DNA of 21,576 nt from a virus: positions 1-21,576 of the IMG/VR virus record IMGVR_UViG_3300001836_000167; one strand, given 5' to 3'. The position numbers and the translations under genes are program-made. Within the stretch, counting starts at the first letter, position 1; every line of letters starts with the position of its first letter. This document shows, one piece after another, positions 480 to 12,286 of this stretch. A model generated the notes under the pieces. That model saw nothing but the letters and a program-made list of their open reading frames with translations. It made no database searches and was not told the DNA's origin.

Positions 480-513
480 TTGAACTTTACGGTAGCCATG
501 ATAAGCTTTCTTC
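480..513 (+). promoter_or_regulatory. Promoter of the zinc-module/HTH gene, leaderless type
   Basis: TTGAAC (480-485), a 16-base spacer and TAAGCT (502-507), with TG one base upstream of the -10 box. The -10 ends six bases before ATG 514, so transcription should begin at or next to the start codon. The spacer contains TTTACGGT (486-493), a word shared with other promoters in the window. There is no Shine-Dalgarno. Confidence 0.6.
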
Positions 514-1107
514 ATGTCATCCCCTCGTCCATTCCTTGATCTCTCCGGCCAGCGCTTCGAGCGTTTGGTTGTGGTTGGTCGCATGCCGAATCTCAAGGGT
601 GTCTCCCAAACGGTCTGGCATGTTCGCTGCGACTGTGGCGAGGAGAAGTTCGCGGTTCTGTACAGCTCCCTGATGAGCGGTAGAACGAAGTCCTGCGGAT
701 GCCTGCATCGAGAAGTGCTTTCCCAACGGGGGCCAAGGCTTCAGCGCGCTTCAGTCAATCCTGATGGCAAGATGCGCCTTTACGAGTGGAACGGGGAGAA
801 GCTGTGCCTGACTGAGGTATGCAGGCGGGAAAATGTTTCCTTGAGCAAGGTAAATGGTCTTTTGGTGGAAGGCCATAACATCCATCATGCGGTTCGGAAG
901 AGCTATGGGAATCCCTTCATTGAGACGGCAAAGACCCTTGGATGCGAGGAGCGCCCAAAGCAGACCAAGACCAGGAGGCTTGCCTGTGGAACAGACTTGT
1001 TCAACGTGGAACGCGAGAGGATTAAGCACAACGCATGGCTGCGCAGGTGCATGGCGAAATGCGCTGAGAAAGGTCTGACGTATCGCGGGCCTTTACCGAC
1101 TGCCTAA
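514..1107 (+). CDS. Zinc-module plus HTH-like phage protein
   Basis: 197 residues. Residues about 9-64 form the small cysteine module that starts with D-L-S-G-Q-R-F and carries CDCG (39-42) and SCGC (61-64). In phages this module is commonly fused to AP2 or HNH domains and is thought to bind zinc and probably DNA. Residues about 88-130 (YEWNGEKLCLTEVCRRENVS followed by KVNGLLVEGHNIHHAV) resemble the helix-turn-helix segment found in phage homing-type proteins. The C-terminal third is basic with extra cysteines. No HNH catalytic motif is seen, so this is more likely a DNA-binding protein than a nuclease. Two shorter paralogues lie at 6172 and 7914. The gene stands alone behind its own promoter with ATG at the predicted transcript start. 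Confidence 0.7.
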   Translation: MSSPRPFLDLSGQRFERLVVVGRMPNLKGVSQTVWHVRCDCGEEKFAVLYSSLMSGRTKSCGCLHREVLSQRGPRLQRASVNPDGKMRLYEWNGEKLCLTEVCRRENVSLSKVNGLLVEGHNIHHAVRKSYGNPFIETAKTLGCEERPKQTKTRRLACGTDLFNVERERIKHNAWLRRCMAKCAEKGLTYRGPLPTA

Positions 1108-1134
1108 CCCCTCCCAAATTTTTCTCCTCCCAAC

Positions 1135-1171
1135 TTGAACTTTATGATTCAAGGTTTAGGGTTGGAGTCTC
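1135..1171 (+). promoter_or_regulatory. Promoter of the 1172-1572 gene pair
   Basis: TTGAAC (1135-1140), a 16-base spacer and TAGGGT (1157-1162). The bases after the -35 box (TTTATG) resemble the TTTACG of sister promoters. Transcription should start near 1169, just before ATG 1172. The -35 TTG could be misread as a start codon of a longer frame, but it would lie upstream of the transcript. Confidence 0.6.
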
Positions 1172-1279
1172 ATGAAAATCATCACCCATCGCTCCCTGAT
1201 TCGCACTGTTGCAAAAAGGTGGCGGATCAGTCCGAGAAGTTTAAGCCGGATGCTGCTTATTTCTCTGGCGGCAAAATGA
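1172..1279 (+). CDS. Possible 35-residue basic leader protein
   Basis: ATG 1172 follows GGAG (1164-1167) and lies at the predicted transcript start. The frame encodes 35 residues rich in Arg and Lys (MKIITHRSLIRTVAKRWRIS and onward) and ends in TGA at 1277-1279. That stop overlaps ATG 1276 of the next gene as ATGA, the coupling used throughout the window. No family is recognised. It may simply deliver ribosomes to the downstream start. The alternative is that the downstream frame extends upstream through this region, which would need a start at the -35 box. Confidence 0.4.
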   Translation: MKIITHRSLIRTVAKRWRISPRSLSRMLLISLAAK

Positions 1280-1572
1280 GGGAAAAGAGCAAGGTTGCTG
1301 AAGCCCTCGACGCCTTAAACAAAGAGACTGCCAGCATACAGGACGTGGAGGCCATCATTGGCAATGGATCATGGACTCGCCTAACCTGCGATGAATGCTC
1401 ATCCGAAGTCGATGCCGTGATTCGGATGGGGCAGGAGCCAGATTACGAAAGCAGCACAGCCCTCCTCTGCTTCTCCTGCGTGAAGAAAGCCGCTGAGATG
1501 ATCAACCGCTCCACCCCTCTCACCGGCAAATGGAATCCTGATGCGTGGGAGGCTTGCGAGAAGGAGGCATGA
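1276..1572 (+). CDS. Small zinc-ribbon protein
   Basis: 98 residues from ATG 1276, chosen because it overlaps the preceding stop as ATGA and excludes the promoter from the coding frame. Two CxxC pairs (TCDEC and CFSC) separated by about 30 residues form a probable zinc ribbon, ending in a helix (VKKAAEMINRS). The N terminus is a short charged helix (EKSKVAEALDALNKETAS). Small zinc ribbons of this form are common in phage early regions and have no established role. The same frame is open further upstream to TTG 1135. Confidence 0.65.
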   Translation: MREKSKVAEALDALNKETASIQDVEAIIGNGSWTRLTCDECSSEVDAVIRMGQEPDYESSTALLCFSCVKKAAEMINRSTPLTGKWNPDAWEACEKEA

Positions 1573-1587
1573 AACTCCTTGCATTCC

Positions 1588-1621
1588 TTCCCGAATAACT
1601 GTAAGGTTGGTGTTACAGAGA
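1588..1621 (+). promoter_or_regulatory. Weak promoter candidate upstream of 1622
   Basis: TTCCCG at 1588 lies 34 bases before ATG 1622, the distance seen in the stronger promoters. The -10 choice is poor: TGTTAC at 1611 or TACAGA at 1614 behind a TG. The spacer contains TGTAAGG, the reverse of CCTTACA, a variant of the recurring promoter word. A nine-codon frame (1569-1598, behind AAGGAGG) overlaps the preceding stop here and is probably not a gene. Confidence 0.3.
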
Positions 1622-1858
1622 ATGAGCAACCACCGACCAATTCCAGCGGGTGATTCCGCAACCAATTTGTCTGCCGTGGATGTGCTTCCCGAAGTATGTC
1701 GCCAAAACGGATTGGGATTACCCGACGAGAGAGTAGTGGCAGAAAAGCGCAAAAGAGCACTTAATCCAATGTGGCGGAACTCAGTTCCAAAGCTGGACTT
1801 TTGCGGCGGCAGGCAACCAATTCCCTTGTTCGCAATCTCGTATTGCGAAGCTGAGTAG
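1622..1858 (+). CDS. Hypothetical protein, 78 residues
   Basis: Start ATG 1622 (MSNHRPIPAGDSATNLSAVD) was chosen because upstream starts in the same frame fall inside the preceding zinc-ribbon gene and before the likely promoter. No family is recognised. The protein is hydrophilic in the middle (PDERVVAEKRKRALNPMW) and has two cysteines near the C terminus. Its last codons contain a perfect inverted repeat (1829-1849). The gene precedes an HTH regulator but is separated from it by 54 bases. Composition is ordinary, and it could be a chance frame. Confidence 0.45.
   Translation: MSNHRPIPAGDSATNLSAVDVLPEVCRQNGLGLPDERVVAEKRKRALNPMWRNSVPKLDFCGGRQPIPLFAISYCEAE
1829..1849. repeat. Inverted repeat before the HTH gene
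   Basis: TTCGCAAT (1829-1836), a five-base loop and ATTGCGAA (1842-1849). A smaller stem, CGTGA/TCACG, follows at 1877-1892. There is no T-run. It could be an operator dyad for the regulator encoded downstream or a weak terminator. Confidence 0.4.
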
Positions 1859-1912
1859 CATCGGCGGATTGCTACACGTGACGCCCTTCACGGAAGTCTG
1901 CTCGACTAGAGC

Positions 1913-2227
1913 ATGGGCAACTTTCCCACCCAAAACGACATGACCAAACTCCAAGCATCCATCGCCAACCTGATTGGCTCGACAAAGAACTTCAACGCGC
2001 AGATCGAGCGGTTGGAGGCAAAGGTGAAGGCTGAGCGGGAAACCGCTTTCTCCAAGATCGGCCCTATGCTCAAAGCCTTGCGCAAGGAGCGCTATCTCAA
2101 GCAGTCAACACTCAGCAGGCAGATCGGCATCAGCGGCCCCACGTTGTCTCAGATTGAAAGCGGTGACGCTGTGATCAGCCTTGCTGTCTTGGAGAAGATC
2201 GAGAAATGGCTGGGGGAGAACGCATGA
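1913..2227 (+). CDS. XRE-family HTH regulator with N-terminal coiled coil
   Basis: 104 residues. Residues about 10-45 form a charged heptad-like helix (IERLEAKVKAERETAFSKIG). Residues about 46-100 are a cro/cI-type helix-turn-helix: LKALRKERYLKQSTLSRQIG, then SGPTLSQIESG as the recognition helix, and a last helix (VLEKIEKWLGE). This fold usually dimerises on palindromic operators. A second protein with the same plan lies at 5292. Candidate operators are the dyads at 4366-4382 and 4417-4433, the inverted repeat just upstream, or the TTTACGGT words. ATG 1940 is an alternative start. The end overlaps the next start as ATGA. Confidence 0.8.
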   Translation: MGNFPTQNDMTKLQASIANLIGSTKNFNAQIERLEAKVKAERETAFSKIGPMLKALRKERYLKQSTLSRQIGISGPTLSQIESGDAVISLAVLEKIEKWLGENA

Positions 2228-2451
2228 AAGTCTTTCCCTCACTTCCGCAGCACCTTGAAGATGAAGCCTTGGCTGATTTTGACCGTCAAGGCGATCAAGT
2301 GCCGCATCCATTCTCAGCCGAGCTTCTGAACAGCGATGATCCGTCATTAGCTCACTTCAAACGCGATCTGTTCTGGTTCGTGTTCGGATATGCGCAGGCT
2401 AAGGGTTGGACATCCTGCGAGAAAAGGATGGCTCAAGCCAAGAACTCATGA
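2224..2451 (+). CDS. Hypothetical protein coupled to the HTH gene
   Basis: 75 residues from ATG 2224, which overlaps the HTH stop as ATGA and has GGGGGAGAA just upstream. The sequence (MKVFPSLPQHLEDEALADFD and onward) is acidic in the N-terminal half and has an aromatic stretch (KRDLFWFVFGYAQAKGW) that may form an amphipathic helix. No family is recognised. Because it is translated with the regulator it could modulate it, but the sequence gives no direct sign of that. Confidence 0.6.
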   Translation: MKVFPSLPQHLEDEALADFDRQGDQVPHPFSAELLNSDDPSLAHFKRDLFWFVFGYAQAKGWTSCEKRMAQAKNS

Positions 2452-2466
2452 AATCCATATTCCCGC

Positions 2467-2501
2467 TTGAACCTTACGCTAATACGTGCTAGGGTTGGTG
2501 G
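2467..2501 (+). promoter_or_regulatory. Leaderless promoter with extended -10
   Basis: TTGAAC (2467-2472), a 17-base spacer and TAGGGT (2490-2495) preceded by TGC. The -10 box ends six bases before ATG 2502. The spacer starts with the word CCTTACGCTA (2472-2481, overlapping the -35 box), which is repeated exactly at 6150-6159. Confidence 0.7.
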
Positions 2502-2783
2502 ATGAACAAACTCCCGCTTAAAACACGCAAGCGCCTGCGCAGGGTCTATCAGGATGCTGCATCAATCTGGCAGCCCATTGCTGGATGCCAATTAGATCAC
2601 GATGTTGACCTTTGGATAGAAATAAGACCAAGTTCTCGCTCAATGGGTATTGGGGATTCATTCAGGGCGGCAGATTGCTTTAAGATTAAAGGAAAATGGC
2701 ACCACATGTATAACGGCGAGCCAAAAGAGATTTGCAGTGATTACATCACCCACTTCATGCCAATCCCTCAACCACCACCATGA
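2502..2783 (+). CDS. DUF551-like phage protein
   Basis: 93 residues. The C-terminal half follows the pattern of DUF551 proteins, small phage proteins that end in a motif like ITHWMPLPEPP. Here it reads YITHFMPIPQPPP and follows a W-I-E-I-R-P strand and the segment GKWHHMYNGEPKEICSDY. Function is unknown in this family. The N-terminal 25 residues are basic (KTRKRLRRVYQDAASIW). The gene heads an operon of six tightly overlapping genes reaching 4335, driven by the promoter that abuts its ATG. Confidence 0.65.
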   Translation: MNKLPLKTRKRLRRVYQDAASIWQPIAGCQLDHDVDLWIEIRPSSRSMGIGDSFRAADCFKIKGKWHHMYNGEPKEICSDYITHFMPIPQPPP

Positions 2784-3034
2784 CAACCTTCCTCATCATC
2801 TACCTCATTCTCGGCCTCATCGCCGCTCCGCTCAGCTACGGGATGACGCTGGCTTATTGGTGGAATGAATCTCCGATTCTGAAGTCTGAGGTAAAAGCGG
2901 CTGGTTGTATTGCTGTGGCAGTATTCCTTGCGTGTTATGCGGTTGTTCTGCCTCCAGCGGCTATCGTCATCTATTTTCTATCCAACCGCGCCCGTCACGG
3001 CCTCTTGTTTCGCAACCCATCAAAGTATCTATGA
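2780..3034 (+). CDS. Small membrane protein with two transmembrane segments
   Basis: 84 residues, starting at ATG 2780, which overlaps the previous stop as ATGA. Hydrophobic segments cover residues about 4-27 (TFLIIYLILGLIAAPLSYGM) and 41-66 (AAGCIAVAVFLACYAVVLPP and onward), with charged residues between and after them. Small two-helix membrane proteins are frequent in phage early operons and have no common function. Holin activity is possible in principle, but the early position argues against it. Confidence 0.65.
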   Translation: MTTFLIIYLILGLIAAPLSYGMTLAYWWNESPILKSEVKAAGCIAVAVFLACYAVVLPPAAIVIYFLSNRARHGLLFRNPSKYL

Positions 3035-3228
3035 CAACAATCAAAGACATCAAAAAAGAGCTGAAAAGATTAATCAAGATGATGAAGTCTTTTCGACATC
3101 CAGGATCGCCTGATGGTATTCTGGTGCTGCACATGGCGCTATTGAAAGCAATTGAAGGCCTTGAGCATGGTGATGACGCCATGAAAACACTCGCCTCCAT
3201 CATCAAGATTTGGGAGGAACAGAAGTGA
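3031..3228 (+). CDS. Hypothetical protein, 65 residues
   Basis: Start ATG 3031 overlaps the preceding stop as ATGA; longer versions of the frame would run through the membrane protein gene. The sequence starts with a basic helix (TTIKDIKKELKRLIKMMKSF) and ends with a second helix (DDAMKTLASIIKIWEEQK). No family is recognised. GGGAGG inside its last codons (3212-3217) serves as ribosome binding site for the next gene. Confidence 0.6.
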   Translation: MTTIKDIKKELKRLIKMMKSFRHPGSPDGILVLHMALLKAIEGLEHGDDAMKTLASIIKIWEEQK

Positions 3229-3506
3229 TCCGCAAATCCGACACGCCAAGGACTGACTTGGAAGAGGCGACACAAACTCAAAGGTTTGGAGGATACATGG
3301 TCAAATCAGCTTTCGCCCGCCAGCTTGAGCGGGAGAATGCCGCGATGAGTGAGGTGATTAAGGAGGCGCACGCCGCCATTGCTGCAATCTACAACCCGAT
3401 TGGAGACGAGACTCCGACGAGCGGAAACCCGTGCATCACGCCAAAACCTCAACAGGGCAGAGCGCTTGCTGTAGTCCTCGCCAAACTTTCCCCTTTCCTC
3501 CAATGA
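3225..3506 (+). CDS. DTPRTD-type phage protein with EAH/ALAKL C-terminal module
   Basis: 93 residues from GTG 3225. The start is supported by GGGAGG seven bases upstream and by the GTGA overlap with the previous stop. The N terminus has SDTPRTD followed by FARQLEREN, a pattern seen in many uncharacterised phage proteins. The C-terminal half (IKEAHAAIAAIYNPIGDETP through ALAVVLAKLSPFLQ) matches the end of the next gene product. No function is known. Confidence 0.65.
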   Translation: MIRKSDTPRTDLEEATQTQRFGGYMVKSAFARQLERENAAMSEVIKEAHAAIAAIYNPIGDETPTSGNPCITPKPQQGRALAVVLAKLSPFLQ

Positions 3507-4138
3507 ACCCCTACTCAACTGACCCATCCCAAGATCAAGACGGCAAGGAGGACGCTTTCCGAAAGGCCACGGCGGATGTTTTTGAAAGCGATCATCTTGT
3601 TGCCGTTACGCCAGACCCAACAGTTGAAGAGCTTGTTAAAAAGCTTCAAGACACTGAAGCGGCATGGCTGCGAGACTGGCGCGAATGGCGGTCTAAAACC
3701 CAGAATCTCCGAGAAGAACTCCATGCTGCAAACCGGCAGATTGCCAGCATGATTCGCCACGATCAGGCAAATCTCGAATCTGATTCGATTGTGGCGTCAT
3801 GCAATTGCCACGTAAAAACCAATGAAGTGTTATTTCATAAGCCGGGGTGTAAGTATCGCCTGATTTCCGAAAGGGATGAAGCTCGCAAAGAACTCGACAA
3901 CCTCAAAGCAGGCACAATCCACTCTTGCGGCGATCACTGCCAGAGGCCGAATTGCGTTACGAGGCGGGAGAACAAAGCCATGCGTGAGGCGATCAGGGAG
4001 GCTCACATTCAAATCAGATACGCAGAGGCAAGCTTTGCGGGCATGGCTATAAGATTGCATCCATCAGACCCATCAAATGATGCTGTCCTGCTCAGAACAG
4101 GCAACGCCCTCGCCAAACTCAAACCATTTATCTCGTGA
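3503..4138 (+). CDS. Coiled-coil protein with cysteine motifs, paralogous at its C terminus to the previous gene
   Basis: 211 residues from ATG 3503 (ATGA overlap). Residues about 40-90 form a charged coiled coil (TVEELVKKLQDTEAAWLRDW and on). The middle has cysteine and histidine groups (SCNCHVKTNEVLFHKPGCKY; HSCGDHCQRPNC) that could bind metal. The C-terminal REAHIQIRYA through NALAKLKPFIS repeats the module of the preceding protein. Function is unknown. The frame is open upstream of 3503, but the ATGA start fits the operon. Confidence 0.65.
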   Translation: MNPYSTDPSQDQDGKEDAFRKATADVFESDHLVAVTPDPTVEELVKKLQDTEAAWLRDWREWRSKTQNLREELHAANRQIASMIRHDQANLESDSIVASCNCHVKTNEVLFHKPGCKYRLISERDEARKELDNLKAGTIHSCGDHCQRPNCVTRRENKAMREAIREAHIQIRYAEASFAGMAIRLHPSDPSNDAVLLRTGNALAKLKPFIS

Positions 4139-4335
4139 CTATCCTCTTCAACGCCAGCATCTACCTCGCCGTTTTCTCGGCCATCGACCTGATTCTCTCA
4201 TTTTTGATAATGCGGTGGTCGTGCCGGACGAGAGGGGTTGTTTCCTTCCAAGTGGCGACGGTTCTGGCTACCATGTCGGTGATCTGCGCTGCGTGCGCGA
4301 TTGTGTGCCTGTGGGCGTGGATGCTGACTTTGTGA
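4135..4335 (+). CDS. Small two-helix membrane protein
   Basis: 66 residues from GTG 4135, overlapping the previous stop as GTGA. Hydrophobic segments cover residues about 4-26 (LFNASIYLAVFSAIDLILSF) and 39-64 (QVATVLATMSVICAACAIVC), joined by a basic loop (RWSCRTRG). This is the last gene of the operon that begins at 2502. It has the size and topology of small phage membrane proteins but no family signature. Confidence 0.6.
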   Translation: MTILFNASIYLAVFSAIDLILSFLIMRWSCRTRGVVSFQVATVLATMSVICAACAIVCLWAWMLTL

Positions 4336-4365
4336 ACAATTAGAATGTGATTCTCGAAAACACGC

Positions 4366-4382
4366 AGTACTAGGGTAGTACT
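4366..4382. promoter_or_regulatory. Operator-like dyad, copy 1
   Basis: AGTACTAGGGTAGTACT: 7-base arms around GGG. The 15-base core GTACTAGGGTAGTAC is identical in copy 2, whose centre is 51 bases away. It contains TAGGGT, the -10 word of the 1135 and 2467 promoters; another TAGGGT lies at 4384-4389. It is a probable regulator site or replication iteron upstream of the replication gene. Confidence 0.65.
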
Positions 4383-4416
4383 TTAGGGTATATACACCAA
4401 TCCAGAATAAGGGTAA

Positions 4417-4433
4417 GGTACTAGGGTAGTACC
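4417..4433. promoter_or_regulatory. Operator-like dyad, copy 2
   Basis: GGTACTAGGGTAGTACC: 7-base arms around GGG. It has the same 15-base core as copy 1, and the flanking pair has changed from A/T to G/C with pairing kept. The compensated flank supports recognition as a symmetric dyad. Confidence 0.65.
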
Positions 4434-4455
4434 AATCTTAATTCGATCTTTTCTC

Positions 4456-4483
4456 TTGCAAGCAAACTTGTTTGATTATATAT
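4456..4483 (+). promoter_or_regulatory. Promoter of the replication gene
   Basis: TTGCAA (4456-4461) and ATATAT (4478-4483) with a 16-base spacer, or TATATA at 4477 with 15. The -35 box lies in the palindrome CTTGCAAG (4455-4462), and CAAAC-TT-GTTTG follows at 4464-4475. The distance from the -35 box to GTG 4493 is 37 bases, as at the other leaderless-type sites. Confidence 0.5.
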
Positions 4484-4492
4484 CCAGTAGCC

Positions 4493-5299
4493 GTGAGGAA
4501 AGCGAAATCAACCCGTAAAATTATGCTAGATGCCAACAGGTGGCGCGATCCTGACTTCTCATCGCTGTCCTTTAAGCATCGAGCGCTGCTGATTGCTTTA
4601 GAGTGCTTGGCTGACAAAGCCGGAGTAGTTGACTGGAATCTCGATAAGATTCATGCGGTTGTTGGTGATGGACCTGAAATTACACGTTTAGACATTCATT
4701 CAATGGGGGCGGATCATGTGGTTTGGATGCCTGATGGGTGCGCTGTTCTTTTGAGTCAGTTTATGAAAGCTCAATATGGAACCTTGAGCCGTAAATGTCC
4801 CGCTCATTCGCCAGTATGGCAGGCCATCAAGAAATGGTGGGGAGAGCGTGAGAGCATTCACCACCAAGAACCGTTCAAGGCTTTCTTTGCTGAAAAGCTC
4901 ATCACTAGACACGGACCCTTAATCAAGGATGAGTACCAAGGAGGCGAGGTCCCGGCATGGAAGATTAGAGCGCTCGAAGATGCTGAATTGGTCAAGGCGG
5001 TAGTTATTCCAGAAGCATTACCGCAATGTGTTTATTGCGCCGTGAAGGACATGTTTGCGTGGCGTCAAAGGATGGTGGATAGGGCTAGAATCAGGACTGA
5101 GGGTGAAAAATGGACATGGACCAAAGAGCAGGCGGAGCATGACATTGAGCAAATTTCTAGTATGCTCAGAACGTACACGCCTGAATCTGTCGAAGCTCAG
5201 ATTAGAAACATGATTCGAGGAACATCTCTTTATCTCAACCCGCCAAAGCCGTTTAGATCAAATCTGCTGTCGCAAAACAAAGGAGAAAACGATGAATGA
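4493..5299 (+). CDS. Probable replisome organiser / replication initiation protein
   Basis: 268 residues if started at GTG 4493, the start nearest the predicted transcript start; TTG 4472 and ATG 4523 are alternatives. The N-terminal 110 residues follow the winged-helix pattern of phage replisome organisers: WRDPDFSSLSFKHRALLIAL, a D-K-A-G-V-V-D-W turn, and SQFMKAQYGTLS followed by K-C-P-A-H-S-P-V-W-Q-A-I (family pattern FI-x-Q-Y-G-x-L with a following conserved His). Such proteins bind the origin and load the helicase. The C-terminal part is charged and helical. Dyads upstream at 4366 and 4417 could be origin or operator sites. It overlaps the next HTH gene by eight bases. Confidence 0.65.
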   Translation: MRKAKSTRKIMLDANRWRDPDFSSLSFKHRALLIALECLADKAGVVDWNLDKIHAVVGDGPEITRLDIHSMGADHVVWMPDGCAVLLSQFMKAQYGTLSRKCPAHSPVWQAIKKWWGERESIHHQEPFKAFFAEKLITRHGPLIKDEYQGGEVPAWKIRALEDAELVKAVVIPEALPQCVYCAVKDMFAWRQRMVDRARIRTEGEKWTWTKEQAEHDIEQISSMLRTYTPESVEAQIRNMIRGTSLYLNPPKPFRSNLLSQNKGENDE

Positions 5300-5579
5300 T
5301 ACCAGAGAAAAAGAATGGCAGGCTATTAAGTCCAAGCTTGAATCTGCAATGCTCAAGGTAGCCAGGCTTGAGCACGAAGCCACGAGTGCAAACAGGGAGC
5401 TTCTTCAATCGTTCAAGATGCTTCGTGAGCATCTAAGTTTGTCGCAGGAACAATTGGCTAAAATCATGGGGGTTAGTCCTATGTATGTCTCTCTTCTTGA
5501 GCGTGGGAAGCGCCAATGGACAGCAAGAAATGTAACTCGGCTCATCAACCCGCTTTTTGACATCGCAATAGAATCATGA
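5292..5579 (+). CDS. XRE-family HTH regulator with N-terminal coiled coil (second copy)
   Basis: 95 residues with AGGAGA upstream of ATG 5292. Residues about 8-40 form a charged helix (WQAIKSKLESAMLKVARLEH). Residues about 43-90 are a cro/cI HTH (FKMLREHLSLSQEQLAKIMG, then VSPMYVSLLERGKRQW). The architecture matches the protein at 1913, though the sequences differ. Sharing an operon with the replication gene suggests it may control its own operon through the upstream dyads; that link is inference. It overlaps the next gene as ATGA. Confidence 0.8.
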   Translation: MNDTREKEWQAIKSKLESAMLKVARLEHEATSANRELLQSFKMLREHLSLSQEQLAKIMGVSPMYVSLLERGKRQWTARNVTRLINPLFDIAIES

Positions 5580-5854
5580 ACCAACAAGCCTACGAACAAG
5601 AACTCGCAGAACGCCAGCGCAAGCACTACGAGGAAATCGAAAAGCACGCGCAACCTGAATGGAAGCCTTGCCTTGATGACGAGTGTCCAACATGCCACGG
5701 AACCATGCTCAAGCTTGATGGTTCGCCGTGCATACATTACCACAGGTGCGACTGCTCTAAGTGCCGCGAGCGCCCGTCTTTTAAGATGTCGGAGTTTTTC
5801 TTGAAGCAAGACATCAGGCAGCTCACTCCCTGCATCGGGACTCCAATGCCATGA
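5576..5854 (+). CDS. Cysteine-rich zinc-binding protein
   Basis: 92 residues starting in an ATGA overlap. An N-terminal charged helix (QAYEQELAERQRKHYEEIEK) is followed by a cysteine cluster: C, CPTCHG, C, then CDCSKC, with His residues between. At least six cysteines suit one or two structural zinc sites, as in rubredoxin-like or DnaJ-type knuckles. No specific family is recognised. Confidence 0.6.
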   Translation: MNQQAYEQELAERQRKHYEEIEKHAQPEWKPCLDDECPTCHGTMLKLDGSPCIHYHRCDCSKCRERPSFKMSEFFLKQDIRQLTPCIGTPMP

Positions 5855-6162
5855 CCTCCATCCCCACCCTGATTAATTCCCTTCACATCCTCGCCCGCGA
5901 CATCAAGTCGGAAGATGGCGTTGCGAATGTCGCCATTCTTGAGGCCGCACAAGTCATGCAGGCGATGTATAACGAACTGAAGGAGGGATGCTTTTACGCA
6001 TTTGCAAAATGCTACGACCGTCATGGCTATTCTTTGGACGTGAATTGGGAAACCGCCATCCGCGACATCAACTACCGCGATGCTCCACTCTATCCGACAA
6101 GCGACGAGGCAGTTGACGCGGCCATTAGAAGTAGGTTGACCGCGCCTATCCTTACGCTATAA
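5851..6162 (+). CDS. Hypothetical protein, 103 residues
   Basis: Starts in an ATGA overlap with the cysteine-rich gene. The N-terminal half is helical (TLINSLHILARDIKSEDGVA, then NVAILEAAQVMQAMYNELKE), a pattern seen in phage proteins of unknown function. The end of the gene is interesting: its stop TAA (6160-6162) lies inside the TATAAT -10 box of the next promoter. It is the last gene of the operon that begins at 4493. Confidence 0.6.
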   Translation: MTSIPTLINSLHILARDIKSEDGVANVAILEAAQVMQAMYNELKEGCFYAFAKCYDRHGYSLDVNWETAIRDINYRDAPLYPTSDEAVDAAIRSRLTAPILTL

Positions 6163-6171
6163 TCCGATATT
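6136..6171 (+). promoter_or_regulatory. Near-consensus sigma-70-type promoter
   Basis: TTGACC (6136-6141), a 16-base spacer and a perfect TATAAT (6158-6163). CCTTACGCTA (6150-6159) overlaps the -10 box and is identical to the word at 2472. The start of transcription should be about two bases before ATG 6172. This is the clearest promoter in the window. Confidence 0.8.
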
Positions 6172-6405
6172 ATGGCTTTTCACAAGGTAGATTTGACAGG
6201 CAAAGTGTTCGGACATCTTACGGCGCTTTCCCTAATCGAGCGCAACAAGTTCGGCAACTCGCGCTGGCTGTGCGTGTGCGCGTGCGGAGAGATGACCGAA
6301 GGCTACTATCAGCACCTTGTCCAAGGCGAGAAGCGAAGCTGCGGGAAATGCGGATTGATCAAGCGAGGGATGAAAAAAGGAGCGAAGAGGAAAAAGAAGG
6401 CTTGA
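6172..6405 (+). CDS. Stand-alone CxCG/SCGxC zinc module protein
   Basis: 77 residues. Almost the whole protein is the module also found at 514 and 7914: DLTGKVFGHL, then NSRWLCVCACGE, and RSCGKCG in place of the usual SCGC. Cysteine spacing fits one zinc site. A very basic tail follows (KRGMKKGAKRKKKA), suggesting nucleic acid binding. There is no catalytic domain, so it is not a nuclease on its own. It is transcribed singly from a strong promoter abutting its ATG. Its stop lies in the -35 box of the next promoter. Confidence 0.7.
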   Translation: MAFHKVDLTGKVFGHLTALSLIERNKFGNSRWLCVCACGEMTEGYYQHLVQGEKRSCGKCGLIKRGMKKGAKRKKKA

Positions 6406-6435
6406 AGTTTACGCTTTATTGCGTGAGCTTTGGGG
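6402..6435 (+). promoter_or_regulatory. Leaderless-type promoter
   Basis: TTGAAG (6402-6407), which contains the upstream stop codon, then TTTACGCT (6408-6415) and a weak -10 TGAGCT (6424-6429) after 16 bases. The distance from the -35 box to ATG 6436 is 34 bases. It resembles the 480 promoter in layout (TAAGCT versus TGAGCT). Confidence 0.5.
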
Positions 6436-6762
6436 ATGGAAACGAATGAAGTTGTGCCGACCATCTCTCGAACATGGTTTTTTCTGGAGGAAAGACTTGG
6501 TGTAGATGGCAAAATCCAATTTCGATGGGATTGCTCAGACAAAAGATTTATCAGTCCAGAATTTCCCTCTAGCGAAGAGGCTCGGAAATGGCATTTCGGC
6601 CCGCCTGGTATAGCCGAAAGAAGCAAATTACTCAATCCTATGAACGAAAACGAACCGCCAACAGAAATCATCGAGCGCCCTTCTCCCGACACCGATCTTG
6701 ACGAGCCGCTTCCTGAGCGGAAATGCAGCCTTGATGGCGAGGCGTGTGAAAGCTGCCAGTAA
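6436..6762 (+). CDS. Hypothetical protein, 108 residues
   Basis: Start ATG 6436 was chosen over the in-frame TTG 6430 because it matches the predicted transcript start. The N-terminal part (TISRTWFFLEERLGVDGKIQ and on, with W-D-C-S-D-K-R-F) looks like a small beta-rich domain. The middle is proline- and acid-rich, and the end is cysteine-bearing (RKCSLDGEACESCQ). ATG 6640 could begin a shorter product. No family is recognised. Confidence 0.55.
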   Translation: METNEVVPTISRTWFFLEERLGVDGKIQFRWDCSDKRFISPEFPSSEEARKWHFGPPGIAERSKLLNPMNENEPPTEIIERPSPDTDLDEPLPERKCSLDGEACESCQ

Positions 6763-6766
6763 CTTT

Positions 6767-7024
6767 ATGGATTCACTCACCGAAGAAGCCAAAGCCATCG
6801 TTTCTGGCGACCGCGCCAACGACTATGGCGACGTAAACGAGTCCTTTTCTCGCATTGCAGAGCTTTGGAGCGCTTATGTTAATGCCTCTATTTCGCCTTG
6901 GGATGTCGCTCAGATGATGATCCTGCTCAAGGTAAGCCGCGCCAAGACGAGCCGGAAGCGCGATACGCTGGTGGACATCATCGGGTATGCGGAGTGTGCG
7001 GGGAGGTTGAACGCCTTGGATTAG
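6767..7024 (+). CDS. DUF6378-like phage protein
   Basis: 85 residues from ATG 6767, four bases after the previous stop; ATG 6734 in the same frame would overlap the previous gene. The sequence follows the DUF6378 pattern closely: GDRANDYGDVNESFSRIAEL, then W-S-A-Y, SPWDVAQMMILLKVSRAKTS, and KRDTLVDIIGYAECAGRL. These small helical phage proteins have no proven function; their helices and D/E/K-rich motifs recall the all-alpha nucleotide-pyrophosphatase folds. No good ribosome binding site is visible. Confidence 0.75.
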   Translation: MDSLTEEAKAIVSGDRANDYGDVNESFSRIAELWSAYVNASISPWDVAQMMILLKVSRAKTSRKRDTLVDIIGYAECAGRLNALD

Positions 7025-7049
7025 CGAACCGTACACGACATGTTCTGGC

Positions 7050-7084
7050 TTGATAGGCGCTAGGATGACATCATAATATGCAAT
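7050..7084 (+). promoter_or_regulatory. Leaderless-type promoter
   Basis: TTGATA (7050-7055) with CATAAT (7072-7077, 16-base spacer) or TAATAT (7074-7079, 18-base spacer). ATG 7085 lies 35 bases from the -35 start. There is no Shine-Dalgarno, and the recurring TTACG word is absent here. Confidence 0.6.
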
Positions 7085-7312
7085 ATGGAAGAGATTAAAG
7101 CCGACCTCAAAGCCGTAAAGAATGCCGTTTTTGGGAATAATGAAGACCCTAAAAGGCAGCCTGGAATCTTGCGCGAGCTTTCCACTTTGGAGGCTTCTGT
7201 GAAGATCACGAACTCCACGCTGGCAGAGATGCGCGGGGACCAGAAAAAGCTGTTATGGCTCGCCCTTGCCGGTGTGGTTGGAGCAGTGTTGCGGCTGGTG
7301 ATTATGCACTGA
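7085..7312 (+). CDS. Coiled-coil protein with C-terminal membrane anchor
   Basis: 75 residues. The N-terminal helix (MEEIKADLKAVKNAVFGNNE) and middle (LRELSTLEASVKITNSTLAE) look like a coiled coil. Residues about 56-73 (LLWLALAGVVGAVLRLVI) form one transmembrane segment at the C terminus. This layout is common in small phage membrane proteins, some of which are annotated near holins; no lysis gene is adjacent here. It starts at a predicted leaderless transcript. Confidence 0.65.
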   Translation: MEEIKADLKAVKNAVFGNNEDPKRQPGILRELSTLEASVKITNSTLAEMRGDQKKLLWLALAGVVGAVLRLVIMH

Positions 7313-7320
7313 GGATCCAT

Positions 7321-7605
7321 ATGAAGACACAACAACCAGCCCAGAGTGGCTCCCCGCATCCGATTTGTTCAATCCATGTTGTGCTTGCGAACCTAGCATT
7401 ATATGTGCTTAAACTCGAAGAAGCTCCATGCTCGGCTCAATCACATTTCGATCATGCGATGTTCGCCCTGTCGGAGATGTGTACAGACTGGAAGCCGAGT
7501 GATTCAGAAGTGATAAAAGTCATTCAAGAAGCACGCGAACACATGGCTCTCTATTTTGAGAAAGCTAAAACTCCTTGGCCTAACCAAAAGCTCGCCGACG
7601 CATAG
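7321..7605 (+). CDS. Hypothetical helical protein, 94 residues
   Basis: Start ATG 7321 was chosen for the GAGGA about six bases upstream; the frame is open further back into the previous gene. The sequence is helical with cysteines (CSIHVVLANLALYVLKLEEA; HFDHAMFALSEMCTDW; VIQEAREHMALYFEKAKTPW). No family is recognised. It probably shares the transcript that begins at 7085, eight bases separating the genes. Confidence 0.55.
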   Translation: MKTQQPAQSGSPHPICSIHVVLANLALYVLKLEEAPCSAQSHFDHAMFALSEMCTDWKPSDSEVIKVIQEAREHMALYFEKAKTPWPNQKLADA

Positions 7606-7613
7606 CGTTCGGC
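7594..7613 (+). terminator. Hairpin at the end of the 7321 gene
   Basis: GCCGA-CGC, loop ATA, GCG-T-TCGGC: eight pairs with one bulged T. It covers the stop codon. No clean T-run follows, so it is only a possible terminator or 3' stability element. Confidence 0.35.
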
Positions 7614-7634
7614 GCAGCGCTCGTTCTCATTATC

Positions 7635-7883
7635 ATGACCATAGAAGAAATGCTAGAATGCCGCCACGAACTCAAGCTCGCATGGTGTGAGCCTTGGGAG
7701 GCATGTGGACCGGAAGGCAACAGGCTTGATGCTCACATTGAGCTACGAGCCACGGTTCATGATTGCGTAAACATGGCTAGGCTTGCGGCTAAAGCTCAGG
7801 GCTTTCCGACGATGGGAAATGATGCCAATCACCTGCTTGATTTTATAGCTGTCCATTGGGCTGAGCCCGTAAAATCGCCTTGA
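7635..7883 (+). CDS. Hypothetical protein, 82 residues
   Basis: The N-terminal helix (TIEEMLECRHELKLAWCEPW) and the rest (HIELRATVHDCVNMARLAAK; DANHLLDFIAVHWAEP) look like an all-helical small protein with three cysteines. No family is recognised. No convincing promoter or ribosome site precedes it, so it is probably read through from 7085. Its stop TGA (7881-7883) lies inside the -35 box of the next promoter. Confidence 0.5.
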   Translation: MTIEEMLECRHELKLAWCEPWEACGPEGNRLDAHIELRATVHDCVNMARLAAKAQGFPTMGNDANHLLDFIAVHWAEPVKSP

Positions 7884-7913
7884 ACAACCGTAAACTTCGG
7901 TTATGCCTGCCGA
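7880..7913 (+). promoter_or_regulatory. Leaderless-type promoter with dyad
   Basis: TTGAAC (7880-7885), a 16-base spacer and TATGCC (7902-7907, weak). The spacer holds ACCGTAAA (7887-7894), the reverse complement of TTTACGGT, within the small dyad AACCG/CGGTT. The distance from the -35 box to ATG 7914 is 34 bases. Confidence 0.5.
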
Positions 7914-8126
7914 ATGAACAGGCAAATTTCCCTAAAAGGAAAGACTTTTGGCAAGCTCACGGTCATTGAATATCTAAGCAAGAACCAGTGGGGGAACTCC
8001 ATCTGGCTATGCGAATGTGAGTGCGGAGATAAAAAAAAAGTGCCGTACCAGCGATTGACCACCGGACAGACTAGAAGCTGCGGATGCCTAAGAAAGAAGG
8101 GGTCTGACCGTAAATTTAATTCTTGA
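7914..8126 (+). CDS. Stand-alone CxCG/SCGC zinc module protein
   Basis: 70 residues, made entirely of the module seen at 514 and 6172: SLKGKTFGKLTVIEYLSKNQ, then WLCECECGDKKK, and TRSCGCLRKKG. It is closest to the 6172 protein (N-S-x-W-L-C-x-C-x-C-G shared). The four cysteines C-x-C and C-x-C suit one zinc site, and the basic tail suits DNA or RNA binding. In other phages the same module precedes AP2 or HNH domains, which are absent here. It is a single gene with its own leaderless-type promoter, immediately before the head operon. Confidence 0.7.
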   Translation: MNRQISLKGKTFGKLTVIEYLSKNQWGNSIWLCECECGDKKKVPYQRLTTGQTRSCGCLRKKGSDRKFNS

Positions 8127-8150
8127 CGCCATAATCTTCGTAAGGCAACA
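8123..8150 (+). promoter_or_regulatory. Ambiguous promoter before the head operon
   Basis: TTGACG (8123-8128) contains the upstream stop codon, as in two sister promoters, but its best -10 (AACAAT, 18-base spacer) overlaps the leader ATG. CATAAT at 8130-8135 is a better -10 but lacks a good -35. TCGTAAGG (8138-8145) is the reverse of CCTTACGA, a variant of the recurring word. Confidence 0.3.
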
Positions 8151-8186
8151 ATGCGGGCACTTGCTTATTTGAGCAGTGCCCGCTAA
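8151..8186 (+). CDS. Possible 11-residue leader peptide before portal
   Basis: ATG 8151 follows AAGG (8142-8145) and encodes MRALAYLSSAR, ending in TAA at 8184-8186. That stop overlaps the portal ATG as TAATG. Nearly all of it forms the hairpin at 8153-8183, so ribosomes on the leader would open the stem. The function is inferred from layout only. Confidence 0.35.
   Translation: MRALAYLSSAR
8153..8183 (+). promoter_or_regulatory. Stable hairpin abutting the portal start
   Basis: GCGGGCAC (8153-8160) pairs with GTGCCCGC (8176-8183), and TGCT/AGCA continues the stem inside after one bulged T, leaving a six-base loop. It ends two bases before ATG 8186. There is no T-run, so translational control or mRNA protection is more likely than termination. 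Confidence 0.55.
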
Positions 8187-10438
8187 TGATTTTAACTAAA
8201 CAACAAGGCTCTGTTTCGCCATCCACTCTTCCTTCGATTATCAATCAGGAGACGGGCGAAATCAAAATGCGCAACCGCATTTCGTCTGCGTCTGAGCTGG
8301 CATCGACGTTTCAAGCACTGTTCATTTCGGACTTTCAGGCAAGCAGGGCAAGAGCCTTGGTTCAGTCTGAAGTTGATGGCAACCCGCCGTACTCAGAATC
8401 AGAGGATCGCAAGTTTGGACTAGGTGGAAGAACCAATGTCAATTGGGGCTATCTCACCCAAAGCCAACAGGACGTTGAAGAGCCTTACATTTCCCTTTTC
8501 GAGTCTATTGACGTTTTCGGAACGACGCCTTCGGACTACGGAACCGAGCTTGAGCGAAATCGAAACTCGCAGGTGATCGCTGAGGAAATCACTCGGATGA
8601 TCAAGAATTGGCCTGATTGGCCGTTCACACTGCAAATGACCGTGCATCTTTTCACGATGTTCGGAGTCAGTTTTACGTTTCGCGAGGATCAATACGACTG
8701 GCGCTGGAAGGTTTACGACCTTTCCTTCCTCAAAATGCCGCGCCGGACTCGTGCCTGCATCAACGATGTGGACATTGTGACGTGCAAGGTCGAGATGCTG
8801 CCCTCTCAGCTTTTTCGCAAGATTGAGAATGAAGAGGCGGCAGCGCAGGCTGGATGGAACGTGGAAGCTGTTAAAAAGGCGATGAAATCGGCCACGCAGA
8901 AGGCTGCCGACACCTCAAATCCGCAGGAAATAGAGCGGACCTATAAGGATCAGGACTACTTTACCGGGCTTTCCGCCACCACCGTTGACATCGTTCATGG
9001 CTGGATTCGCGAGTGCGATGGCACCGTTACCCATCTGATCGCTCGCTACGACGGTGTGGGGGATTTCCTCTACAAGTGCGAAGGGCTGTATCAGGACATG
9101 AGCCAGCTCGTTACGGCTTACACCTATGGAGTGGGCAGCAACGGTGACTTTTACTCCATTCGTGGGAACGCTTGGCGCGGCCACAACGGTTCCGCCAGTT
9201 TGAACATGCTGACATGCAAGTTCCTCGATCAGGCATGCTTTGCGGCAACTCCGCACATCCAAGCCAGCTCCGAGGATGCCGTCATTGATCAGATGATCCG
9301 CCCTCGTGGGCCTTACAATGTGGTCGATCAAGGAACAACATTCCCTGAAATTCCTCACGTCCCATTCCAGCAGTCGCTCATCCCAGCCATCCAGCAGGTT
9401 CAGAGCATTTTTGCCATGCGAACACGCTCCCCAGGGGCGGCGATGAAGTTCAGCAACGTGGCAAAGACTGCCGAGGAAGTCCGCTCGCAAAATGAAATCG
9501 AAGGCCGTCTTAATGCCGCCTCTGTTGATCTGTTCTTCAACTCGTGGAAAAGCGACTTCCGCGAGGTTGTTCGCCGCGCATGCAATCCAGAAGTTTCAGC
9601 GGCGCATCCGGGCGGAAAGGAAATCTTCGAGTTCCGCAAGCGTTGCTTGAAACGCGGGGTTCCAATCGAGGCCATCTATGCTGTGGATGTCGGCTCCATC
9701 GAAATCAACCGTGGGATCGGCAAAGGTAGCGCCCAAGATCGCAGAGCTTCGTTTGGAGCTTTGATGCCTGTCATGGGGCAGTTTGATCAAGAAGGGCAGC
9801 GCATTCTCCTTCGCCAGTTCACAGCCTCCTACACCGACACGCAGTTCGCCCGTCTTCTCGTTCCTGATGAAGCTGGCACCCGCCCGCCGATGGACCTTCA
9901 AATTGCCAACATGGAAAACTCCCTCATGGAGCTTGGCAAACCGGCGCAAATCGAGCCGAATCAGGATCATGTGGTTCATGTCGGAAGCCATCTTGCCGCG
10001 CTGGCAGAGGTCAACGGCGCTCTTTCGCAGGTCCAAATTGAGTTGGACGATGCAATCCGCCAAATGTTCCCTGTCTGGCAGCATGCCACGGAGCACATGC
10101 AGTTTATCAGTCCTGAGAATCCGCTTTACCCTGAGTTTAAGGCTTCCCTTGAGCAGATTGGCGAAGTCGTCATCAACGGTCAGAAGCACCTCGATGCTGA
10201 AGCTCGCAAGGCTCAAAGGGCCGCTGGCGAGGAAGTTGTCGATGGCGGTTCAACGCCCGGCGTGGAACGTCAGGCCGTTGAGGCTCAGACCATGCTTGAG
10301 CTGCAAAAGAAGCAGCAAGACCTTCAATTTGATCAGGAGCGCCACCGTCAGGACATGGCATTCAGAGATGCCAAGAACGCCCAAGATTTGCGGCAAAGGA
10401 TGGCCGAGGCCGCACTGAAGAGTCAGCAAGGTAAATAA
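8186..10438 (+). CDS. Portal protein
   Basis: 750 residues, close to the length of P22-type portals. Portals form the dodecameric ring at the capsid vertex for DNA entry and tail attachment. Supporting stretches are WGYLTQSQQDVEEPYISLFE near residue 90, the aromatic core (NWPDWPFTLQMTVHLFTMFG), and the portal-like late segment containing KTAEEVRSQNEIEGRLNAAS followed by V-D-L-F-F-N-S-W. The C terminus (about 690-745) is a Gln-rich coiled coil (LQKKQQDLQFDQERHRQDMA) typical of the portal barrel. Position before a scaffold-like and a capsid gene supports the call. ATG 8267, behind AGGAG, is an alternative start. Confidence 0.8.
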   Translation: MILTKQQGSVSPSTLPSIINQETGEIKMRNRISSASELASTFQALFISDFQASRARALVQSEVDGNPPYSESEDRKFGLGGRTNVNWGYLTQSQQDVEEPYISLFESIDVFGTTPSDYGTELERNRNSQVIAEEITRMIKNWPDWPFTLQMTVHLFTMFGVSFTFREDQYDWRWKVYDLSFLKMPRRTRACINDVDIVTCKVEMLPSQLFRKIENEEAAAQAGWNVEAVKKAMKSATQKAADTSNPQEIERTYKDQDYFTGLSATTVDIVHGWIRECDGTVTHLIARYDGVGDFLYKCEGLYQDMSQLVTAYTYGVGSNGDFYSIRGNAWRGHNGSASLNMLTCKFLDQACFAATPHIQASSEDAVIDQMIRPRGPYNVVDQGTTFPEIPHVPFQQSLIPAIQQVQSIFAMRTRSPGAAMKFSNVAKTAEEVRSQNEIEGRLNAASVDLFFNSWKSDFREVVRRACNPEVSAAHPGGKEIFEFRKRCLKRGVPIEAIYAVDVGSIEINRGIGKGSAQDRRASFGALMPVMGQFDQEGQRILLRQFTASYTDTQFARLLVPDEAGTRPPMDLQIANMENSLMELGKPAQIEPNQDHVVHVGSHLAALAEVNGALSQVQIELDDAIRQMFPVWQHATEHMQFISPENPLYPEFKASLEQIGEVVINGQKHLDAEARKAQRAAGEEVVDGGSTPGVERQAVEAQTMLELQKKQQDLQFDQERHRQDMAFRDAKNAQDLRQRMAEAALKSQQGK

Positions 10439-10444
10439 ACGACA

Positions 10445-10780
10445 ATGGAACTAACACCCAAAATGATCGCGTTTCGCAGAAGCGACGACGCAAGAACGGA
10501 ACTGGCACGTCTGCTAAATGAGCCAGCACTCAAGCAGGCAATCGAAGTCATTCGCGAGGCAGGAATCCCCAAGAGCATTCCGCAGCTCGATTCAAGGAAT
10601 CACCCCGACACGGTGGTTGCCCACAAGTTTCACGAAATGGTGGGGATCAATAGCGCTTTGGACGCTCTCTCCCGCCTAACTCTGCCGATGAACGAGCATC
10701 CAGACGACCATGCCGAGGAGGAGCCTTTCTCGCACACGCTGCCGAAGCACCTTCAAAAGCTGCCAACTTTCACCAAATAA
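10445..10780 (+). CDS. Small protein between portal and scaffold
   Basis: 111 residues (MELTPKMIAFRRSDDARTEL and onward). It is helical in the first half, has HKFHEMVGINSALDALSRLT in the middle, and an acidic/His-rich end. Small genes in this position are common in podovirus-like head operons and usually lack a known role. The junction before it and the one after it share the 12-base word AAATAAACGACA covering the stop codons. No Shine-Dalgarno is visible. Confidence 0.6.
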   Translation: MELTPKMIAFRRSDDARTELARLLNEPALKQAIEVIREAGIPKSIPQLDSRNHPDTVVAHKFHEMVGINSALDALSRLTLPMNEHPDDHAEEEPFSHTLPKHLQKLPTFTK

Positions 10781-10789
10781 ACGACACCC

Positions 10790-12016
10790 ATGATCCACAT
10801 CCAAACTCCTCTTTTAAACGAAGTCGCTGCCATTTCTGACTCTGGCGGAGGCAATGCGCCCCAAGTTGACCTTGGAGCCGATGATTTCGCCGCTGAATTA
10901 AGCAAGGGCATCGAAGCCCATAACGCTCAAAAGAACCAGCCGGAAGTCTCTCAGGTTGTTGAGCCTGCGAAGAAGGCAGAACCGGTCAAAGAAGAGGCGA
11001 AAACCGCCAAAGCAAAGCTGACTGACAAGCTGGCGAACTTGGAAGAACCCGCTGAAGAGGAAGCACAGACCGAAGAGCCCGATTTGCCGCCAGAAGGTGA
11101 GCAGAACCCTAAGGCGATGAGTAAATGGAAGCAGCTTCGCGCCATTGAAAAGCAGTGGAAGGAAGCTGAGCCAAAGATCAAGGAGTATGAGGCCAAGATT
11201 GCCGAATTACAGAAGGCCAGCGTGCCGCCTGAGTTGGAGACTGAGCTGAAGGAACTTCGTGAATTCCGCGACGTGTACGATCTGCGCAATTCTCCTGAGT
11301 TCAAGAAAACGGTATCCGAGCCTTTGGACCGCATTGGCAGCGAAGTGGGAGAAATCGCCACCGAGTTCAAGATTGATCCTTCCGCGCTCCTTGAGGCGAT
11401 GCGCGAGAAGTCTGAATGGCGTCGCAACATCGCCATTGATAAAGTAGTCAAGATCGCTGCCGACGTGGCACTTGAGGAAGACCGCGAAGTTCCTGCTGGC
11501 GTTGCAAATTCGTTGCATAATGCCGCGAATCGCATGCACGCGGTCTGGCAAAAGCAGGCGGAACTCGAAACCAACGCCAACAATCTTCGCCAGTCAAAGG
11601 AGCTTTCGCAGAAGCAAAAAGCCGAAGTCTCCACGGTGGAGCAGGAAAAGGCTTGGAAGCAGGCTTCGGAGCAGTCTCGTGGCATCATTGAGTCTAAATT
11701 GAGTCCTGTTTTGAAGGGGTTGAACGATGCTGAAAAGACTGAGTTTATGGACGCTGTAAATTCAGCGAGCATTTCAGATGATCCTGTTGAACGGGCTTTC
11801 CAAGCCCAAGCTCCACACGTTGCAGCAGTGCTCATCAACCGTTTAAACACGGTCATGAAAGAGTTGGCAGCCGTCAAGAAAGAGCGCGATGGCATTGTTG
11901 CCGCCAAGCCGGGAACCAAGCAAAATCATGGCGAACCCGTGAAGCAGGCTATTGGCCTTGAAGATGACGACTTTGCCGCTGAATTACAGGCTGGAATGCG
12001 AAACATGTTTGCCTAA
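10790..12016 (+). CDS. Putative scaffolding / capsid assembly protein
   Basis: 408 residues between portal and capsid genes, the classic scaffold position. It is very rich in Glu, Lys and Ala and mostly coiled coil (WKEAEPKIKEYEAKIAELQK; ELREFRDVY; NNLRQSKELSQKQKAEVSTV), with an acidic low-complexity N-terminal third. Scaffolds template procapsid assembly and bind coat protein through a C-terminal helix. DDFAAEL occurs twice, at residues 31-37 and at 393-399, the second ending the protein with a basic/hydrophobic helix (QAGMRNMFA). A related tail ends the 14571 protein. No protease motif is seen. The stop overlaps the convergent gene stop. Confidence 0.65.
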   Translation: MIHIQTPLLNEVAAISDSGGGNAPQVDLGADDFAAELSKGIEAHNAQKNQPEVSQVVEPAKKAEPVKEEAKTAKAKLTDKLANLEEPAEEEAQTEEPDLPPEGEQNPKAMSKWKQLRAIEKQWKEAEPKIKEYEAKIAELQKASVPPELETELKELREFRDVYDLRNSPEFKKTVSEPLDRIGSEVGEIATEFKIDPSALLEAMREKSEWRRNIAIDKVVKIAADVALEEDREVPAGVANSLHNAANRMHAVWQKQAELETNANNLRQSKELSQKQKAEVSTVEQEKAWKQASEQSRGIIESKLSPVLKGLNDAEKTEFMDAVNSASISDDPVERAFQAQAPHVAAVLINRLNTVMKELAAVKKERDGIVAAKPGTKQNHGEPVKQAIGLEDDDFAAELQAGMRNMFA

Positions 12017-12252
12017 TTGAGCAAAACAGCCTCGTCGTTCTCAAGCGAGGCTAGAATCTTGTCCAATCCTTCCTTGAAGGCGACAACCACCGCAGGCTTG
12101 TTATCGCGGGCATTGTTGTGAATGCAGCATGCCACATTGACCGCCAGCGCCTCAAGGACATCTGGAAAGGTTGGCTCGATCTGTTTTGTGTGGAAATCGA
12201 GGTGTTTAGCCAGCTTTTCCGTGAGGATTTCCGATTTGGTTTGTTCGCCCAT
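12013..12252 (-). CDS. Small antisense-oriented gene inside the head module
   Basis: 79 residues from ATG 12252 (MGEQTKSEILTEKLAKHLDF and onward), helical, with cysteines in ALAVNVACCIHNNARDNKPA and an acidic end. No family is recognised. The in-frame TTG at 12258 would lie upstream of the expected transcript start. It runs against the head operon, its stop overlapping the scaffold stop by a few bases. A matching promoter just upstream, of the leaderless type used in the early region, supports it as a real, probably early, gene. Confidence 0.55.
   Translation of the reverse strand: MGEQTKSEILTEKLAKHLDFHTKQIEPTFPDVLEALAVNVACCIHNNARDNKPAVVVAFKEGLDKILASLENDEAVLLN
12028..12052. terminator. Hairpin at the end of the scaffold gene
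   Basis: AGCCTCG (12028-12034) pairs with CGAGGCT (12046-12052) across an 11-base loop, 12 bases after the scaffold stop; AGAATCTT follows. It lies within the 3' end of the convergent minus gene. It is possible as a terminator, but weak because the loop is large and the T-run poor. Confidence 0.35.
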
Positions 12253-12286
12253 AAGCAACCGTAAAGTCGGAGGATGCTCTAATCAA
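12253..12286 (-). promoter_or_regulatory. Leaderless-type promoter on the minus strand
   Basis: On the minus strand: TTGATT (12286-12281), a 17-base spacer, TACGGT (12263-12258), then five bases to ATG 12252. The distance from the -35 box to ATG is 34 bases. The -10 lies in TTTACGGT (12265-12258), the same 8-base word as at 486 and 17052 on the plus strand. Confidence 0.6.

Follow-up and report, generated by a model that had tools for sequence, protein, structure and literature searches.

We found that a phage genome fragment and its relatives carry -35/-10 box pairs at a preferred distance from start codons, and it is highly probable from this geometry that the pairs are host-type sigma70/RpoD-like promoters placed so that the mRNAs are leaderless, with downstream genes served by ATGA coupling or by starts lacking a Shine–Dalgarno (SD) sequence in an SD-poor host. 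The fragment (21,576 bases, 52% GC) is a virus record of IMG/VR and is called the window below. In the sigma70-type arrangement, a -35 of the form TTGNNN is separated from a -10 of the form TANNNT by 16–18 bp, and the pairs conform to it at 16–17 bp. In the mechanism that we propose, host RNA polymerase carrying the housekeeping sigma factor would bind (C)TTG[A/C]NN and, after 16 or 17 bp, TANNNT. Because the -10 element ends ∼5–8 bases ahead of the start codon, transcription is predicted to begin at the A of the ATG or within 1–2 bases of it; we infer leaderless status from this promoter geometry. Ribosomes would then recognize the 5′-terminal AUG, and later genes of each transcript would be reached through ATGA overlap coupling or from starts without SD. 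A search for sigma70 region 1.2 (PF00140) gave no match in three relative records, which are possibly incomplete.

The earlier note had placed -35-like TTG boxes 34–37 bases ahead of a start codon at nine sites, and all nine are present (Table 1). As promoter pairs, they are of unequal quality: strict TANNNT at sigma70 spacing occurs in five (480, 1135, 2467, 6136, and 12286), whereas the -10 is weak in the other four, with degenerate boxes at 6402, 7050, and 7880. Several sites recur in related contigs. The sequence TTGAACTTTACGGTA of the 480 promoter was found again 34 bases ahead of a start in relative G001, and relatives G004 and G040 also have TTGAAGTTTACG of the 6402 promoter 34 bases ahead of a start. 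Relative G010 contains a match to AGGGTTGGAGTCT[C/T]ATG of the 1135 promoter, matches the 2467 promoter along its full length (80%), and retains the 7880 promoter with its spacing (85%). Orthologues of the 12252 gene in G001 and G010 keep both the TTG at 34 and the -10. The ATG at 1172 opens a 35-codon ORF with an ATGA overlap to the gene starting at 1275.

Table 1. Leaderless-type promoter sites in the window, with the gene that follows the first of them
Feature	Position	Strand	-35	-10	Start codon	Distance (bases)	Remark
Promoter, leaderless-type	480..516	+	TTGAAC 480-485	TAAGCT 502-507	ATG 514	34	
Gene downstream of 480 promoter	514-1107						HNH-like / small DNA-binding protein
Promoter, leaderless-type	1135..1174	+	TTGAAC 1135-1140	TAGGGT 1157-1162	ATG 1172	37	
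Promoter, leaderless-type	2467..2504	+	TTGAAC 2467-2472	TAGGGT 2490-2495	ATG 2502	35	
Doubtful member	4456..4495	+	TTGCAA 4456-4461	TATATA-like 4477-4482	GTG 4493	37	
Promoter, leaderless-type	6136..6174	+	TTGACC 6136-6141	TATAAT 6158-6163	ATG 6172	36	Nearest consensus of the nine
Promoter, leaderless-type	6402..6438	+	TTGAAG 6402-6407	TGAGCT 6424-6429	ATG 6436	34	Weak -10
Promoter, leaderless-type	7050..7087	+	TTGATA 7050-7055	CATAAT 7072-7077	ATG 7085	35	
Promoter, leaderless-type	7880..7916	+	TTGAAC 7880-7885	TATGCC 7902-7907	ATG 7914	34	Degenerate -10
Promoter, leaderless-type	12250..12286	-	TTGATT 12286-12281	TACGGT 12263-12258	ATG 12252	34	Gene 12013-12252

The site at 4456 is doubtful in both its -10 box and its start codon. 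Homology suggests ATG 4523 as the alternative to GTG 4493, and homologues of this gene in four relatives have clear promoters 35–37 bases before their own ATG. The 4493/4523 operon encodes an HTH protein (5292–5579). Upstream of it, the palindrome GTACTAGGGTAGTAC occurs in two copies 50 bases apart (4367–4381 and 4417–4433); this pair is operator-like and perhaps the real control region of the operon. Elsewhere in the window, three small related proteins (G-FG-LTV...W-C-C-CG type) are encoded at 514, 6172, and 7914, each with its own promoter of the type described, as is also the case for related genes in G001, G004, and G010, in the manner of autonomous cassettes. A strong inverted repeat, GCGGGCAC...GTGCCCGC (8155–8185), ends 3 bases before the start of a portal-like gene (8186) and could be a terminator-like element or an occluding hairpin. 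An Rfam search of the window gave no match.

We measured positional enrichment over the 27 window starts that have no translational coupling to an upstream gene. TTG[A/C/T] (TTGH) lies at -38 to -34 in 11 of these starts, against 1.9 per equal five-base bin elsewhere (binomial p ∼1e-6). The count also held up against shuffled sequence, the comparison proposed in the earlier note: over 1000 dinucleotide shuffles it averaged 1.92 and peaked at 6, never reaching 11. TTGH combined with TANNNT at sigma70 spacing precedes five window starts (shuffle mean, 0.08). Counted from the boxes, 5 of the 10 TTGH-N18/19-TANNNT pairs in the window have an ATG at 34–37 (0.9 expected). Four of the 27 starts (1172, 2502, 4493, and 6436) came from the earlier note, a slight bias in this window-only test; tests on the relatives only are free of it. 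Among the 11 TTGH starts, the one at 6767 lacks a correctly spaced -10 and probably arose by chance; on the minus strand, 20145 may be a further member. Scanning the window with the E. coli consensus yielded a weak excess (12 versus 9.3 expected from shuffles; 3 versus 1.05 at the claimed distance), because the -35 here is TTG[A/C]NN and the -10 a loose TANNNT; detection therefore needs the phage family's own consensus.

We gathered ∼40 related contigs, some longer than 60 kb, by means of their capsid, portal, and terminase proteins. Gene starts were assigned with a home-made caller that placed 26 of 35 lambda starts correctly; it used a codon model, since a dicodon model with sparse training missed known genes. 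The distance seen in the window is preferred in these phages as well: among 322 nonredundant starts with an upstream gap of at least 20 bases, TTGH occupies -38 to -34 in 69, compared with ∼28 per bin, and CTTG occupies -39 to -35 in 34, compared with 5–12. Overlapping genes in the family have no such TTGH peak. With the window excluded, TANNNT follows the -35 TTG at an offset of 22 or 23 (16–17 bp after the hexamer) in 24 of 63 family cases, against ∼1/100 for TTGs at control distances in the relatives. The -10 was thus found at the exact 16–17-bp spacing although it had not been a selection criterion. A count independent of the gene caller found ATG at +34 of TTGH-N18/19-TANNNT in 23 of 277 nonredundant pairs versus 4.6 (Poisson p ∼8e-10), and control pairs with the spacing 3–7 bp off or the boxes reversed had ATG at +34 only at background. 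The peak survives in intergenic gaps of 45–100 bases (27 versus ∼8) and above 100 (27 versus ∼14), so the spacing is not forced by crowding, and we rejected short gaps as its source. Terminase genes whose upstream sequences have diverged retain TTG 36–38 bases before the ATG together with TANNNT. We relied on fixed-pattern tests in place of an unrestricted two-block EM, which drifted to a weak motif, its mixing weight at the maximum; even so, -34 remained the peak of its position density. The excess, real as it is, amounts to ∼40 of the 322 separately spaced starts, and most such starts lack the signal, so leaderless promoters as a rule for first genes, as the earlier note had it, is too strong a statement.

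Other features of the relatives concern gene structure. The G010 terminase has an intein-like insertion at its Walker A motif (L031:6021–8288), and L065 and L066–L068 also look interrupted. G001, the closest long relative, contains a single ORF of 4477 codons (9039–22472).

The same promoters could instead yield a very short leader (∼2–10 bases), with transcription not starting exactly at the AUG and translation still SD independent. Such a leader would fit the scatter of distances over 34–38, the secondary excess of ATG 42 bases after the -35 across the family (14 versus 4.6), and window gene 17073, whose pair lies 41 bases upstream; it would also fit the -1 base, which shows no sign of the preference for pyrimidines expected immediately ahead of a transcription start (0.55 versus 0.65). 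Nevertheless, at the modal +34 the distance between the -10 and the ATG is the usual one, and ATG is the start codon in 29 of 29 strict cases, and we judge a short leader unlikely. We consider it very improbable that the TTGAAC/TTTACG words are not promoter elements but operators for a phage regulator, such as the HTH proteins at 1913–2227 or 5292–5579. Two HTH_3 proteins are encoded, TTGAA[C/G][T/C]TTACG is repeated at 480, 2467, and 6402 and in relatives, and TTTACGGT occurs in excess upstream of genes (6 versus 0.17). However, most family members lack TTTACG and yet retain both TTG and TANNNT with the sigma70 spacing, and an operator alone would not set the distance to the ATG. Chance, whereby pattern matching in short AT-richer gaps would put promoter-like pairs near start codons, draws on the E. 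coli consensus scan barely exceeding its shuffles, but we rejected it as having almost no likelihood, since it is contradicted by the spacing recovered independently from the relatives, the ATG-at-+34 count, the shuffles, the missing peak in overlapping genes and coliphages, and the peak in long gaps.

Consistent with leaderless initiation from host-type promoters, the reading that we prefer, SD sequences are nearly absent from the family. SD-like 4-mers occur at -17 to -5 in 13–15% of its starts versus 8–16% in control windows, whereas the same script finds them in 50–66% of lambda, P22, and N15 starts. Starts with TTG at -38 to -34 have SD-like motifs in 10%, the same as control windows (counted with a 4-mer set slightly different from that of the coliphage count). 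In lambda, P22, and N15, the script found TTGH at -38 to -34 in 3 of 101 starts, with no peak. Internal genes had been proposed to use SD sequences or ATGA coupling. ATGA overlap is indeed common (155 of 675 starts), but SD as a rule did not stand: with SD-like 4-mers near background in the family, the proposed opposition of leaderless first genes to SD-led internal ones does not hold in general. GGAGG is present at -18 to -7 in ∼20 of 215 overlapping genes, including the earlier examples 3212 and 5281, and only this minority looks SD led.

Starts that are neither coupled nor leaderless type have a different feature across the family. AAACGA clusters 7–18 bases upstream of them (19 in 253 and 9 in 138, with ∼1 per bin elsewhere), as in taAATAAACGACA ahead of window genes 10445 and 10790, and may be a non-SD ribosome signal; it is absent from an Opitutaceae plasmid. 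A broader and still tentative idea, which we hold to be possible but rather doubtful, is that the lineage has largely abandoned SD, combining leaderless promoter starts, ATGA coupling within operons, and non-SD ribosome recruitment by the family-specific AAACGA 7–18 bases upstream of other separately spaced genes.

As to the host, our best guess is that a member of the Verrucomicrobiota is plausible. The sole match among 50,697 phage records was the terminase of Akkermansia phage Chambord (23.6% over 40%), and Chambord has the same promoter arrangement before its repressor genes. In Akkermansia muciniphila, ∼10% of mapped transcription start sites are leaderless, lying at start codons (PMC4782308), and SD sequences are scarce (PMC10783764). 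The Opitutaceae plasmid, also from Verrucomicrobiota, is as SD poor as the phages and has a weak TTG peak (11 of 75 starts versus ∼5–6 per bin). The little SD initiation in the phage lineage thus fits an SD-poor host, and the Akkermansia and Opitutaceae parallels are suggestive of Verrucomicrobiota. Portal and terminase had no match in genome_contigs, the major capsid protein none among phages, and the Chambord integrase none among plasmids. Matches to DnaB and RecT were rejected as host clues, being too widespread to inform.

From sequence alone, these results predict, in a testable way, where transcripts start in an uncultured phage lineage, and they show that an SD-poor translation style is possible in phages. 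Gene callers that rely on SD will misplace starts in this lineage, and the promoter layout is itself a clue to the host.

Lambda cI is expressed from PRM, a sigma70-type promoter, as a leaderless mRNA. It is one gene in a genome dominated by SD initiation, and lambda, P22, and N15 lack the positional peak, unlike the window family. Lambda is named in a survey of leaderless genes whose published signature for them is TANNNT ∼12 bases upstream of the start codon (Zheng et al. 2011, PMC3160421); TA-led leaderless bacterial genes share this layout with the window phage. That survey has no leaderless Verrucomicrobia in its list, and phage genomes were outside its subject (PMC3160421). A. muciniphila is a bacterium with mapped transcription start sites, to which the window phage is likened from sequence alone. 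The earlier remark that the strategy is seldom described in phages is fair, although there are precedents in phiYS40 and the cluster O mycobacteriophages. Cluster O phages such as Corndog have predicted leaderless promoters (PMC4351075), but they infect actinobacterial hosts and have a few such promoters per genome, whereas the phages of the window family, which are unrelated to them, have a positional peak over dozens of genes. The strategy being already documented in other phages, the interest of the present case is moderate: the leaderless strategy is known from other phages and bacteria, and what is new is an undescribed phage lineage. The Thermus phage phiYS40, as summarized in PMC3594737 (citing Sevostyanova 2007), has mostly leaderless middle and late mRNAs. 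Going by that summary, it resembles the window phage in having many genes on leaderless mRNAs and host-type -10 elements adjoining the start codon; leaderless transcripts were shown there by experiment and for middle and late genes only, whereas those of the window phage are predicted and would include the terminase gene and small early-type genes.
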